From IMG/VR virus record IMGVR_UViG_3300002460_000154, positions 1 through 25,131 of that record: a stretch of 25,131 bases of DNA; one strand, given 5' to 3'. A program made the position numbers and the translations under genes. Origin of the DNA: a virus. Within the stretch, counting starts at the first letter, position 1. Every line of letters begins with the position of its first letter. Of this stretch, positions 3,286 through 25,073 are shown piece after piece. The notes under the pieces were generated by a model. The model saw only the letters and a list, made by a program, of their open reading frames with translations, was not told the DNA's origin and did not search any database.

Positions 3286-3930
3286 TTAGAACACCTTTAG
3301 AGCTTTGAGCGTGGCAACATTGCCGATGGTCCCGCCGATGTTTCCCCACATCTGGGCTTGAGCCTGACCTTGAGCCAGAGCTGCACCGGCGGCCGCCTGT
3401 CCTTGTTGTGTCAATGCATTGCCAATGTTGGCGCCAGTTTGCTGGGCGGCAGCTGCCTGGCCTGCGGCCGATGCTTGGCCCAAGCCTGAGATGGTACCAA
3501 GCTTACTGAACTGCGACTCAATCAACTGGCTTAAAAGCTGTGGGCGAAACTGAGCAAGAGTAGCCTGCACGTTGCCGCCACGAAGTCCGCCAGTTGCTGA
3601 CGCGTTTTGCAAGATGGCGTTCTCACCTTGCTGCATCATTGATTGAAACTGAGGCGATGATTCGATGCCGGCAATTGCTTGTTGCTGGGCTGCCGGTCCT
3701 GCAAGGCCAAGTAGACCTTGTTGGCCACCGATGGCCTGCTCACCAGCTCCTACGTAAGGAGCCAGCAACTTTTGAACGGCGTCGAACTGACGCCGCTGCT
3801 CCTCAATTGATGCTTGGCTTGCTGCAGTCTGGGCACCAGCAGCTGATTCTGCAGCACTAGACTGCGCGTTGCTGGACATCACGCCAGTGATGACTGATCC
3901 GGCCACGACAGCCGTTGCGATTCCGCTCAT
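3286..3930 (-). CDS. Ejection (DNA transfer) protein, P22 gp7-like
   Basis: This 214-residue protein starts with a hydrophobic segment (about residues 3-18) and is otherwise dominated by Ala, Gly and Gln. That low-complexity style is typical of the gp7/p32 group of DNA transfer proteins (P22 gp7 is about 229 residues). A recognisable part is the central PYVGAGEQA ... GLRGGN region found in many podovirus homologues. The start overlaps the stop of the cupin-SET gene as ATGA, with GGAG upstream, and the next ejection gene starts one base after its stop. It is likely co-translated with both and packaged in the head. Confidence 0.7.
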   Translation of the reverse strand: MSGIATAVVAGSVITGVMSSNAQSSAAESAAGAQTAASQASIEEQRRQFDAVQKLLAPYVGAGEQAIGGQQGLLGLAGPAAQQQAIAGIESSPQFQSMMQQGENAILQNASATGGLRGGNVQATLAQFRPQLLSQLIESQFSKLGTISGLGQASAAGQAAAAQQTGANIGNALTQQGQAAAGAALAQGQAQAQMWGNIGGTIGNVATLKALKVF

Positions 3931-4793
3931 TGGGATTCTCCTTCAATTAGATTGACGCCCGAGAGGGCGAGGGCTTGGCGGTAGTCAACTGTCACCTCCT
4001 CACCTTGATTGCCACCGGCGCATCCAGCAATGCGCTTCAAGGCTACAAGCCAGATGTCACCACTTTCGTCCTTGACAAACTTAGCGTTGGGGTTCTTAGC
4101 GTGGTTGGTGTAGCGACCTGCTGGTGTGCGCATGCCATCGATGCGCGCTGGTGCGATGACCTCACCTTGCTCAACTGAAGAGCTGAGGAAAACACCTTTG
4201 CCCTCAATGGCCGAGTCACGCACGGTGAACTTAGGTGCAAAACCACTTGGCATCTTGATTTGGTCATGCGGATTCTCAGACTGAGCGCGGACTGCAGCAG
4301 GCGTGAAACCTGCAAGGCGCACAACAAGTTCAAAGTCTTCACGGTCTTCACGGCGGTGATAGGTCTCAAGTTGCTTAGCAACCTCAGCGTGCGCTTGCCA
4401 CGTGGCGCTCTTGTCGAGGAACATGGCCTCAAGCTTATCGATGTCGCGCTCGTCAGTGGAGTAGACATTCTGCCAGATGCAGGTCTCAAGCACGTAGCCA
4501 AGTTTGCGGCCAGGCTTGCCAACAAAGATCATGGGTGCTCGCAGCACTTTGGTCTGACCATCGTCACCTACCATGGCAACTGCACCAGTCAACATGATGT
4601 TGAGGTGCTCAAACCGCTGGGCGTGGCCGATGGCGAGAGTGCCAGCCGGCAGAGTGACTTCGCGGATGTAGATACCCGGGCCGAAGTGGTGGACAACTGG
4701 GCACTCGACTTGAGGCAGGTCCAAAAGGTGTGATTCAACCTGCTCGATTTTAGCAGGGTCCACAATACTGTGGGATTTGGCTTCAGCCAGCAT
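3927..4793 (-). CDS. Cupin-SET fusion protein, predicted protein-lysine methyltransferase
   Basis: Two parts are visible in 288 residues. Residues 35-115 look like a cupin barrel, with His57 and His63 in the metal-motif region and a run of short beta strands. Residues 190-275 carry the hallmarks of a SET domain: GKGVF (198-202), RYTNHAKNPNA (227-237, the RFxNHxxxPN-like signature) and GEEVTVDY (264-271, ending in the DY pair). SET enzymes transfer methyl from S-adenosylmethionine to lysine; the substrate here is unknown. The middle (115-185) is helical and charged. The ATG has an AAGGAG site, and the stop overlaps the gp7-like start (ATGA). The gene follows a 118-base gap with a dyad and a probable promoter. 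Domain calls come from motifs; activity is inferred. Confidence 0.7.
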   Translation of the reverse strand: MLAEAKSHSIVDPAKIEQVESHLLDLPQVECPVVHHFGPGIYIREVTLPAGTLAIGHAQRFEHLNIMLTGAVAMVGDDGQTKVLRAPMIFVGKPGRKLGYVLETCIWQNVYSTDERDIDKLEAMFLDKSATWQAHAEVAKQLETYHRREDREDFELVVRLAGFTPAAVRAQSENPHDQIKMPSGFAPKFTVRDSAIEGKGVFLSSSVEQGEVIAPARIDGMRTPAGRYTNHAKNPNAKFVKDESGDIWLVALKRIAGCAGGNQGEEVTVDYRQALALSGVNLIEGESQ

Positions 4794-21432: not shown

Positions 21433-21590
21433 AGCGTAGTCGTTACCTCTACACCTGGATCGACTGGGTCAAGGAGATTTTGGGCTGGGGTCTTGGTCTG
21501 GTCATCGGGTTCATCCTGCTGCCAGTCCTGGGCTTCATCCTGAAGCTTCTCTGGGTCTTCTTCATGATCGGCTGGGACTTAATCAAATGA
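21429..21590 (+). CDS. Membrane microprotein (53 residues)
   Basis: It starts in the ATGA overlap with the upstream stop and ends in an ATGA overlap with the J-domain gene. Residues 17-53 are almost all hydrophobic (ILGWGLGLVIGFILLPVLGF, then a second half ILKLLWVFFMIGWDLIK), enough for one long or two short membrane segments. The N terminus is basic (MKRSRY), so it should stay in the cytoplasm. It has four Trp and no Cys. Possible roles are an inner-membrane anchor for partners, superinfection control or a small holin; the last is unlikely to be provable here as no lysin gene is in view. Confidence 0.75.
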   Translation: MKRSRYLYTWIDWVKEILGWGLGLVIGFILLPVLGFILKLLWVFFMIGWDLIK

Positions 21591-21865
21591 GCAAAGCTTT
21601 CGCGACTCTGGGCCTTCCTGATACCGCGACGCCTGACGAGGTCAAGGCGAAATGGCGGGAACTCTGCATGATTCACCACCCAGACCGCGGAGGCAACTCC
21701 GTGGAGTTCAACACGATCCGCAAGGCCTACAAGGCGGCCATGGAAGAAGCCAGTGAGCCCAAGCCCTGCACCCAATGCAACGGCGAAGGCAAGGTCAAGG
21801 TCAACAGTGGTTGGTCCTCGATCGATATGCCATGCCAAGCGTGTGAGGGTTCTGGCCATGGCTAA
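21587..21865 (+). CDS. Mini J-domain protein with a DnaJ-type zinc motif
   Basis: The protein has 92 residues. A J-domain occupies about residues 3-55 with the essential HPD at 31-33 (MIHHPDRGG) and a final helix FNTIRKAYKAAM. It is followed by two CxxCxGxG motifs (Cys61, Cys64 and Cys83, Cys86), enough for one zinc centre in place of the two of full DnaJ. J-domain proteins switch on DnaK ATPase; phage versions may bring host DnaK to replication or virion parts. It has no substrate-binding C-terminal domain. The ATG overlaps the membrane microprotein stop. Confidence 0.88.
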   Translation: MSKAFATLGLPDTATPDEVKAKWRELCMIHHPDRGGNSVEFNTIRKAYKAAMEEASEPKPCTQCNGEGKVKVNSGWSSIDMPCQACEGSGHG

Positions 21866-22267: not shown

Positions 22268-22434
22268 ACTATCCTAATCGTTGGCATGTGATACCTGTTG
22301 GCGATCTGCGTGAGCATGAACCTCTGCCAACGTGTTGGTGCAAACCAACTCCAGATGAAGACCACGACATCTTTGTCCACCACTCACTAGATGGCCGCGA
22401 GGCCTTTGAAACAGGCGAAAGGAAGCCATCATGA
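22264..22434 (+). CDS. Small conserved phage protein with CxC and HHSLDGRE motifs
   Basis: The protein has 56 residues and ATGA overlaps at both ends. It contains RWHVIPVGDLREHE, then TCWCKPTPDEDHD and FVHHSLDGREAFE. A short protein with exactly this order of motifs recurs in phages of proteobacteria; it has no assigned role. The paired Cys and several His suggest metal binding with an unknown partner. Confidence 0.7.
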   Translation: MNYPNRWHVIPVGDLREHEPLPTCWCKPTPDEDHDIFVHHSLDGREAFETGERKPS

Positions 22435-23306
22435 AACCTATGCTTGCATCATCGGCTGGACCGGTCATCCCATTCCCAATGCTGCTCAGCCCCAAGCTGG
22501 ACGGCATTCGTTGCTTGGTGATTGATGGGGTCGCTGTTGGTCGTTCGTTGAAGCCAATACCCAACAAGTACGTGCAGTTGCTGTTTGGCCACCATGAGTT
22601 TAATGGCCTCGATGGGGAGCTGATCGTCGATTCGCCTATTGCCAAGGAGGTGTTCCAAGTGACCTCGTCAGGCGTCATGAGCATCGAGGGTCAGCCCAAA
22701 GTGAAGTTCTATGTGTTTGACGACTTCAGCCACGAGGCTGGGTTCGCCAAGCGCTTGGACATAGCCTTCAAGCGGACCAAACGTCATACCCACTTCGTGC
22801 AGGTGCAGCATGACAAGGTGAACCGTGAAGCTGCCATCCTGACCTGGGAGGAGAGCTACCTTGCTGCTGGCTACGAAGGCGTGATGCTGCGCCATCCTGA
22901 CGGCCCGTACAAGCATGGTCGCTCGACTGCCAAGGAGGCATGGCTGCTGAAGGTCAAGCGCTTTGTCGACGCTGAAGCCAAGGTCATCGGCTACTCTGAA
23001 GCTCAGCACAATGCCAATGAGGCGAAGCGAAATGAACTGGGCCAGCTGGAACGTTCAAGCCATAAAGCAGGCAAGGTCGGCAAGCAGACACTTGGGGCCC
23101 TCATGGTCAAGGACTTGAAGACCGGCGTGGAGTTTGACATCGGCACTGGGTTCACCGAGTCTCAGCGCCAGTTGCTGTGGGCACAGGGCGACAATCTGAT
23201 CGGCAAAGTTGTGAAGTACAAATCGCAACCGACTGGCGTCAAGGACAAGCCGCGCTTCCCAGTGTTCCTCGGCTTCCGCGACAAGGTGGATATGGACTCA
23301 AAATAA
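22431..23306 (+). CDS. ATP-dependent DNA ligase, T7-like
   Basis: The protein has 291 residues, smaller than T7 ligase (359). Motif I is KLDGIR with Lys22 as the likely AMP-bearing residue, motif III GLDGEL (59-64), motif IV EGVMLR (149-154) and motif V WLLKVKRF (171-178). An oligonucleotide-binding domain follows (about 195-285). It seals nicks from lagging-strand synthesis and repair. The ATG overlaps the upstream stop, making this the last gene of the coupled run; P3 follows 15 bases after its stop. Confidence 0.93.
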   Translation: MKPMLASSAGPVIPFPMLLSPKLDGIRCLVIDGVAVGRSLKPIPNKYVQLLFGHHEFNGLDGELIVDSPIAKEVFQVTSSGVMSIEGQPKVKFYVFDDFSHEAGFAKRLDIAFKRTKRHTHFVQVQHDKVNREAAILTWEESYLAAGYEGVMLRHPDGPYKHGRSTAKEAWLLKVKRFVDAEAKVIGYSEAQHNANEAKRNELGQLERSSHKAGKVGKQTLGALMVKDLKTGVEFDIGTGFTESQRQLLWAQGDNLIGKVVKYKSQPTGVKDKPRFPVFLGFRDKVDMDSK

Positions 23307-23400: not shown

Positions 23401-23796
23401 ATGGCAACTGAAGTCAAATACAAGTTCCCCAAGGCGCTCGGCGCCTGTGCGGATAAACTGTTCGAGCTGCGCAACAAGCGCTTGGCCGAGCAAAAGAAGG
23501 TCGACGAGATTGCAGCTGAAGAGACTGCGCTCAAGAACCACATCATCGAGAACCTGCCCAAGTCCGAGGCGTCTGGCGTGGCTGGCAAGCTGGCCCGAGT
23601 CACTGTCGTGACCAAACAGGTTCCTCAGGTCAAGGACTGGGACGCCTTCTACAAATACGTGAAGAAGACCGGCAGCTTTGACCTCATGCAGAAACGCCTG
23701 ACTGATGCGGCCATCAAGGAGCGTTGGGAAGCAGGCAAGGAAGTTCCGGGTGTTGAACACTTCAACGCCGTGTCTGTCTCCATCAACAAGGTCTGA
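23401..23796 (+). CDS. Conserved coiled-coil protein (131 residues), unknown function
   Basis: The ATG has GAGGAG upstream. The first 60 residues form a charged coiled coil (KLFELRNKRLAEQKKVDEIA ... EETALKNHIIENLPKSEA), then SGVAGKLARVTVVTK and a globular end with WDAFYKYVKKTGSFDLMQKRL and FNAVSVSINKV. This layout is conserved in phage early regions, without an agreed function. It is first in the P3 operon, with denV and a likely single-strand-binding protein, so a role in recombination or repair is plausible but not shown. Confidence 0.85.
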   Translation: MATEVKYKFPKALGACADKLFELRNKRLAEQKKVDEIAAEETALKNHIIENLPKSEASGVAGKLARVTVVTKQVPQVKDWDAFYKYVKKTGSFDLMQKRLTDAAIKERWEAGKEVPGVEHFNAVSVSINKV

Positions 23797-23798
23797 CC

Positions 23799-24161
23799 AT
23801 GACCCGCATCAACTGCGTGCCCGTTGAAGAGCTCCATCAAAAGCATCTGGTGGCCGAGTATCGTGAGCTGCCACGTGTGTTCAAGTTGGCTGAAGCTGCC
23901 GCCAAGCGTGGTGGCGTCACGGCTCCTGATACGTACACCCTTGGTGCTGGTCATGTGAAGTTTTTCTACAGTCGTCTCAACTACTGCCAACAACGCTTCA
24001 AGCAACTTGTGGCTGAGATGATTCGTCGCGGCTACAACCCGCAGCACACCGAGTGCCCAGCAGTCTCAGTGCCTGTTGGCTGGTTGCAAAGTTGGTCGCC
24101 CACTGAGGCAGACCTGCTGATCAATCGCCAGCGCATTGCAGACCGCATGCCAAAAAGTTGA
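23799..24161 (+). CDS. denV: Pyrimidine-dimer DNA glycosylase, T4 DenV-like
   Basis: The protein has 120 residues and starts MTRINCVPVEELHQKHLVAE, parallel to T4 endonuclease V. After Met removal Thr2 would be the nucleophile; Glu23, Arg22, Arg3 and Arg26 are in the known active-site positions, and YRELPRVF and LGAGHVKFFY are conserved. It cuts the glycosyl bond at UV dimers and nicks DNA. The T4 protein is 138 residues; this one stops before the aromatic WYKYYG tail that helps bind the dimer, and no other frame supplies it. The ATG lies two bases after the upstream stop. Confidence 0.93.
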   Translation: MTRINCVPVEELHQKHLVAEYRELPRVFKLAEAAAKRGGVTAPDTYTLGAGHVKFFYSRLNYCQQRFKQLVAEMIRRGYNPQHTECPAVSVPVGWLQSWSPTEADLLINRQRIADRMPKS

Positions 24162-24205: not shown

Positions 24206-24251
24206 CAACCAGCGCAGTGCTAGTACACAAACAACCTAAGGAACCATGATC

Positions 24252-25073
24252 ATGGCTACAAAGAAAACCCAAACCACCGCTCTCGTCAAATGGGATGAGG
24301 AACTTGCCAAGCAAGCTGAAGTTGCTGCAGGCATGGAAGCCAACACTGGCGGCGGACAGTTCTTCAGCACCAAAGGCGGCATTCTGTCTTGGCAAGATGC
24401 TCCGCTCCCCGGCAACCAGATGGCCGTCGTCATCTTGGACTCGGTCCTCGAGAACGTGTTCTATGAAGGTCGCTACGATCCGGACGTGCCTCAAGGCCCG
24501 ACCTGCTTCGCCTTCGCTCGCGAAGAAAAGACCATGGCACCTCACACCATCGTTGTTGAAGCAGGCAATGCTCAGCACGATCAGTGCGCCGGCTGCCCCA
24601 TGAACGAGTTTGGCACGGCTGAGGTCGGCAAGGGCAAAGCATGTCGCAACACGCGTCGTCTGGGCATGATCCCTGCTGGCACGTTCAACGCAGCAGGCAA
24701 GTTCGAGCTGAATGAAGACGAGGACCACTACGAGACCACGGCTGTCGGCTTCATGAAGCTGCCTGTCACGTCCGTCAAGGGCTACGCCAGCTTCGTCAAG
24801 CAGGTGGCCGGTGCTCTGCGCCGTCCTCCGTTCGGCATCGTGACTAAGGTCAAGGTGGTACCGGATCCTAAGAGCCAGTTCAAGGTCGTCTTTGAGCCGA
24901 TCATGAACTTGCCTGACGAGCTGATGGGCGCCATCATGAAGCGTCACGAAGAAGTCAAGTCCACCATCGACTTCCCCTACCAACCGGCTGAGGAAGAAAC
25001 TGCACCGGCTCCGAAGCGTGGTAGTCGTGCTGCAGCAAAACCTGTGGCCAAGCGCGGCGCCCGCAAGTACTGA
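24252..25073 (+). CDS. Zinc-ribbon protein, candidate single-stranded-DNA-binding protein
   Basis: The protein has 273 residues. ATG 24252 fits AAGGA better than the ATG at 24246. Four Cys (85, 112, 115, 131) in PTCFAF, QCAGCPMN and KGKACRNTRRL can form a zinc site within a beta-rich core (about residues 55-220). The tail (225-273) is acidic, then Pro/Ala/Lys/Arg-rich, ending RGARKY. Its place beside ligase and primase, and its general style, suggest a phage single-strand-binding or replication protein, but no fold can be proven here. A possible extended -10 (TGCTAGTAC, 24218-24226) without a clear -35 lies upstream. Confidence 0.75.
   Translation: MATKKTQTTALVKWDEELAKQAEVAAGMEANTGGGQFFSTKGGILSWQDAPLPGNQMAVVILDSVLENVFYEGRYDPDVPQGPTCFAFAREEKTMAPHTIVVEAGNAQHDQCAGCPMNEFGTAEVGKGKACRNTRRLGMIPAGTFNAAGKFELNEDEDHYETTAVGFMKLPVTSVKGYASFVKQVAGALRRPPFGIVTKVKVVPDPKSQFKVVFEPIMNLPDELMGAIMKRHEEVKSTIDFPYQPAEEETAPAPKRGSRAAAKPVAKRGARKY

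Follow-up and report, generated by a model that had tools for sequence, protein, structure and literature searches.

A probable short-form DenV-type pyrimidine dimer glycosylase in a P22-like virus

Known DenV-type enzymes and the gene at 23799-24161

The roles of single residues in the mechanism of pyrimidine dimer removal are known from T4 endonuclease V (DenV, T4-pdg; PDB 2end). T4-type enzymes such as the DenV of phage RB59 (L272; 138 aa) carry an aromatic WYKYYG tail at residues 128-133. Changes in this segment reportedly lower dimer-specific binding, so that an enzyme lacking it might be weaker or differ in its substrate; the importance of the tail for dimer binding is said to rest on work with one enzyme. 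The pyrimidine dimer glycosylase of Chlorella virus PBCV-1 belongs to the same enzyme class and is likened here by function alone; it cleaves the 5' pyrimidine's glycosidic bond first and the phosphodiester second (PMC4918129). A further relative is the annotated endonuclease V of Roseobacter phage RDJL Phi 1 (ADK73457.1), which has three residues after its last conserved Arg and is 57% identical to the protein described below, although phage and host differ. The string WYKYYG had no match in the literature searched, which took in few subscription papers. Likewise, no discussion of short DenV forms was found in passages of PMC8265664, PMC1821046, PMC4918129, PMC11288001 and PMC8096240, but one may well have been published among the subscription papers, few of which were covered.

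The window, i.e., the whole stretch of DNA that was analysed, is a virus record of 25,131 bases. On its plus strand, an open reading frame with an ATG start and 120 codons plus a stop lies exactly at 23799-24161. The following features of the gene are used below, the counts referring to distinct proteins with the window included:

23799..24161, plus strand: DenV-type pyrimidine dimer glycosylase/AP lyase, short form (PF03013, PHROG 1183, PDB 2end; model Z 17.9 against T4 endonuclease V)
23802..23804, plus strand: Thr2 codon (translation; Thr in 161/162)
23862..23867, plus strand: Arg22-Glu23 codons, with the catalytic Glu (Glu in 162/162, Arg22 in 147/162)
23874..23876, plus strand: Arg26 codon (Arg in 153/162)
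24132..24161, plus strand: conserved R112-xxx-R116 followed by the last four residues, MPKS, and the stop (alignments, tail survey)

The window protein matches PF03013 (Pyr_excise) with 57.8 bits (E 1.4e-15; curated cut-off 23), the 81 positions of the profile being matched at residues 1-83. PHROG 1183 ("endonuclease V N-glycosylase UV repair enzyme") is hit with 138.5 bits (E 2.6e-40) and, in PDB, T4 endonuclease V 2end with an E of 9.6e-21; all three scores are far above chance. No NCBIfam family was matched by the window protein, by a T4-type DenV or by a Bordetella homolog (zero for each of the three). An AlphaFold2 model based on 26 related sequences reached a mean pLDDT of 92.4. When compared with the T4 crystal structure using VIA-align, 119 residues were aligned (model 2-120 on T4 2-125; Z 17.9, 1.5 A), and the runner-up fold in the list scored a Z of 5.2. 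The Foldseek TM score against T4 endonuclease V is 0.90 by query length and 0.80 by target length. These matches and the predicted fold bear out the initial annotation of the gene as encoding a DenV-type enzyme.

Identity to T4 endonuclease V is 39%. Translation and pairwise alignment place T2, R3, H16, Y21, R22, E23 and R26 at the T4 positions, and the two proteins share two C-terminal basic positions (window R112 = T4 R117, window R116 = T4 K121). Two markers of family membership, Glu23 and a Thr2 that follows the initiator Met, are present, and the active site was rightly described as intact, since Thr2, Arg22, Glu23 and Arg26 are all found where T4 has them. If the protein works like T4 endonuclease V and the Chlorella virus enzyme, Thr2, which from its role in T4 we take to be the N-terminal nucleophile after removal of Met, would attack the 5' pyrimidine of a cyclobutane dimer at C1' with assistance from Glu23. 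An imine would then form, beta-elimination would nick the strand, and a polymerase and a ligase would finish the repair. In contrast to T4 endonuclease V, the window protein lacks WYKYYG and is encoded in a P22-like genome.

C-terminal ends of the window protein and its relatives

T4 endonuclease V continues for 17 residues after K121, the residue aligned with R116 of the window protein. The pairwise match to the RB59 DenV (39% identity) ends at T4 residue 124 and the structural alignment at T4 residue 125, both before W128, and nothing in the window protein corresponds to W128-G133. The absence of the aromatic tail, as initially noted, is thus confirmed. Since the model aligns over 119 residues to T4 residues 2-125, the fold would be complete without T4 residues 126-138. 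The part past the last helix (T4 residues 126-138) is read as a variable appendage, with fold and active site complete without it. The WYKYYG tail is a trait of the T4-type DenV subtype and not a defining feature of the Pyr_excise family. In the two other forward frames, the region around the stop and beyond it shows no tail motif. Three relatives on other contigs (L001, L002, L003) have their stop at the identical codon position, which makes a sequencing or assembly slip unlikely. Loss of the end by a frameshift or a premature stop was considered and is rejected in view of this shared stop, the strong selection (see below) and the lack of a tail motif in the other forward frames.

The ends of related proteins were compared in a survey of 208 loci, consisting of viral contigs (47 loci and the best 80 of 581 confirmed candidates), genome contigs (best 80 of 165) and the window locus itself (L048). 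Some contigs occur twice due to the two viral scans, and 162 distinct proteins, including that of the window, were obtained. Tail length was counted as the residues following the arginine aligned with R116. Three of the distinct proteins (L202, L203, L206) are short of the tail region as read and were left out; L206 has an early stop, as probably have others of the three. This sample was drawn by similarity to the window; it therefore favours the window's own type and does not give the frequency of short ends across the family. Of the 159 distinct proteins that reach the region, the window's among them, 96 end within 8 residues, 22 have 9-12 residues and 41 at least 13. Ends of up to 8 residues are found in 54/87 viral and 42/72 genome rows (17/72 genome rows have at least 13), and in 16/37 if the first, more varied viral scan is taken alone. 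An aromatic cluster, i.e., at least three W/Y/F within six residues among the first 25 of the end, occurs in 9/162 proteins and two W/Y/F in 6/162.

In addition, 22 phage records were picked by hand for variety from 1045 matches (12 from the best 60, 10 from an evenly spread 60). Eight have up to 8 residues, two have 11-12, six a longer end unlike that of T4 and six a T4-type tail. Named isolates with short forms are Roseobacter phage RDJL Phi 1, Rhodobacter phage RcSimone-Hastad, Oceanospirillum phage PD0307 and Vibrio phage 393E50-1. Even among six records labeled Straboviridae, the family of T4, three have the T4-type tail (L268, L272, L281) and three are without it (L275, L276, L278). As judged from these sequences, the T4-type tail is a minority in every sample taken, and its absence from the window protein appears ordinary. 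The short end had been singled out as an anomaly, a view that does not hold given how common tail-less ends are in viral and bacterial relatives. That most family members share such an end applies to the similarity-drawn sample (96/159), but neither to the first, varied scan (16/37) nor to the hand-picked records (8/22). The suggestion that the tail may be dispensable in this lineage gains indirect support because tail-less forms are widespread and conserved.

PF03013 was also sampled in two phyla, with matches in 47/398 and 14/199 genomes. Among the matches listed were 43 new loci, of which 19 matched a profile made for this analysis and 24 did not. All 19 (genome loci L217-L230, L247-L249, L258, L259) represent a divergent bacterial group of 110-246 aa as read, which starts with MRIWD or similar and lacks Thr2. 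Consequently, this group cannot use the T4 nucleophile as placed, and the Pfam name may be misleading for it. As all profile matches are of this type, the sampling says little about T4-like tails.

Selection, tail types and rival readings

For an estimate of selection, 116 codons of the window gene were compared with those of its relatives. Against the short form L002, 27 synonymous and 2 nonsynonymous differences were counted (dN/dS 0.017, dS 0.44), and against the short form L003 44 and 5, respectively (dN/dS 0.020, dS 0.94). L004 and L005, whose proteins are 85% and 73% identical to that of the window and have 20-residue ends unlike T4's, gave dN/dS values of 0.10 and 0.11. A dN/dS of about 0.02 points to strong purifying selection on the short form; the core is tightly constrained, and the end varies.

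A tree was calculated from 130 representatives with the tail columns removed. Before that, 51 of 181 rows had been taken out because they shared at least 80% identity with another row in their tail class. The tree comes from a quick search on few columns. Of 14 T4-type tails, 13 fall in one part of 38 rows, together with 12 short and 9 otherwise-tailed rows; the motif rule had counted L039 (KPHLYKD) as T4-type for the tree, although it belongs with four KPHLY rows. The window is located in the other part of 92 rows, which comprises 68 short rows, 23 with other ends and a single T4-type tail (L032) on a very long branch. The T4-type label changes 6 times on the tree versus 13.5 times for shuffled labels, and the dividing forks have moderate support (84, not starred). 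Within these limits and on a tree with no fixed root, a gain in the T4 part and a loss in the other part are indistinguishable.

On the best reading, the 23799-24161 protein would be a pyrimidine-dimer glycosylase/AP lyase of the ordinary kind, with a variable appendage as its C-terminal end. We assign a probability of roughly 0.9 to its being a functional DenV-type enzyme (pyrimidine-dimer DNA glycosylase/AP lyase) encoded by a P22-like virus, with a short C-terminal form common in its branch. The analysis establishes homology and a predicted fold, the conservation of the catalytic residues, purifying selection, the commonness of tail-less ends and the neighbouring genes; the chemistry, the dimer specificity and the use in repair are what we infer.

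T4-like function might be retained with the tail replaced by an equivalent surface of the core, e.g., the W95-W99 segment, which refines the best explanation and is compatible with it. We regard this as a tentative option. Position 95 is aromatic in 84/116 representatives without a T4-type tail compared to 7/14 with one, and position 99 is Trp in 101/116 compared to 6/14, the rest being Tyr or Phe. However, the contrast at position 95 is not significant on the tree, where it comes down to three independent pairs on supported branches. W95 as a compensation for the tail is not supported, due to too few independent contrasts.

It appears unlikely that the tail-less branch, found in small phages as well as bacterial genomes, forms a subfamily of distinct function which recognizes lesions without the T4 tail and acts on a broader or different range of substrates. 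Quite unlikely, too, is a shift of the window enzyme itself toward mainly abasic sites or oxidised purines (e.g., formamidopyrimidines) with little activity on dimers. The missing aromatic tail would fit such a shift, as would the several core positions, 34, 81, 83 and 96 among them, at which tail-less and tailed rows differ; moreover, formamidopyrimidine and oxazolone lesions are also substrates of the Chlorella virus enzyme (PMC4918129). On the other hand, the T4 catalytic residues are kept, and at position 95, the one compared on the tree, three independent contrasts on supported branches are too few for significance. Finally, a truncated or decaying denV copy without its 3' end, for which a length 18 residues below that of T4-type DenV might speak, is highly improbable and seems largely refuted by the selection signal among short forms, the stop position common to L001, L002 and L003 and the spread of short ends across phages and bacterial genomes.

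Neighbouring genes, bacterial copies and meaning

The virus record encodes P22-like coat, portal and stabilisation proteins on the minus strand. Its plus-strand replication arm comprises primase-like, ThyX, DnaJ-like, ATP-dependent ligase, Gam-like and DenV-type genes and a conserved unknown. Closest to the DenV-type gene are:

22431..23306, plus strand: ATP-dependent DNA ligase (PF14743, PF01068; phrog_114, 2.3e-65)
23401..23796, plus strand: Gam-like/minor-head-like small protein, directly upstream (phrog_13900 "minor head protein", 1.3e-20; phrog_253 "Mu Gam-like", 8.7e-5)
24246..25073, plus strand: conserved downstream protein, function not assigned (phrog_27714, 2.7e-18; neighbour in L001-L005)

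The stop of the Gam-like gene is 2 bases ahead of the DenV-type start. Both this gene and the downstream neighbour are kept in all five nearest relatives (L001-L005), and the ligase is found just upstream in three of them. No ligase match was detected in L005 within 3,000 bases upstream nor in L003, for which 656 bases upstream are available; given the result for L005, the ligase is not a constant neighbour. In all five nearest records, a family A DNA polymerase gene (PF00476, PolA) follows the DenV-type gene at a distance of about 2 kb, as calculated from coordinates in the relatives' records, which reach beyond the window. The ligase could possibly serve a later step of repair. Since ligase and polymerase are replication genes as well, they fit repair but prove nothing. 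For alterophage R7M, a comparable set of PDG, DNA polymerase I and ligase has been discussed (PMC8265664). No photolyase was found in 13 virus records of relatives, all of which are classed as linear and are possibly fragments.

Three observations were made on other genes of the window. The L002 ligase (1444-2310) is only 66% identical to window 22431-23303, while for the Gam-like, downstream and ThyX proteins of L002 identity over the matched parts reaches 94-99%; the ligase gene alone may thus have been exchanged. In the virion arm, 3927-4793 on the minus strand encodes 288 aa with a C-terminal SET-domain match at residues 213-271 (23.5 bits, Pfam cut-off 22.4), possibly a phage-borne SET-type protein. 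The 92 aa protein of 21587-21865 on the plus strand has a J domain (PF00226) over the cut-off, followed by a stretch resembling the DnaJ zinc finger (PF00684, 26.7 bits, below the cut-off of 32.7).

DenV-type genes are also present in Alcaligenaceae, Rhizobiales and other genomes, where they are 38-59% identical to the window protein (best 80 of 165). Many of these copies share the short end but, unlike the window, are located on bacterial contigs. In Lampropedia cohaerens (L133 980-2366), a short DenV-type gene directly follows ybaB and recR. Of 208 loci, most of them searched with flanks of 2-3 kb, this is the only one with such an arrangement, which is thus not a general neighbourhood. A Bordetella copy adjoins a porin gene. 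The gene had initially been said to suit a virus exposed to sunlight; this inference is not borne out, as the same kind of gene in bacterial genomes means that it is no marker of a virus's exposure to sunlight.

In conclusion, the DenV-type gene of the window is an ordinary phage repair gene for an enzyme of a common short form. The T4 tail is not general in DenV-type enzymes, as natural tail-less versions are common and at least the window's is strongly conserved. Natural tail-less forms are ready test proteins for the role of the tail, a modest point for enzymology.
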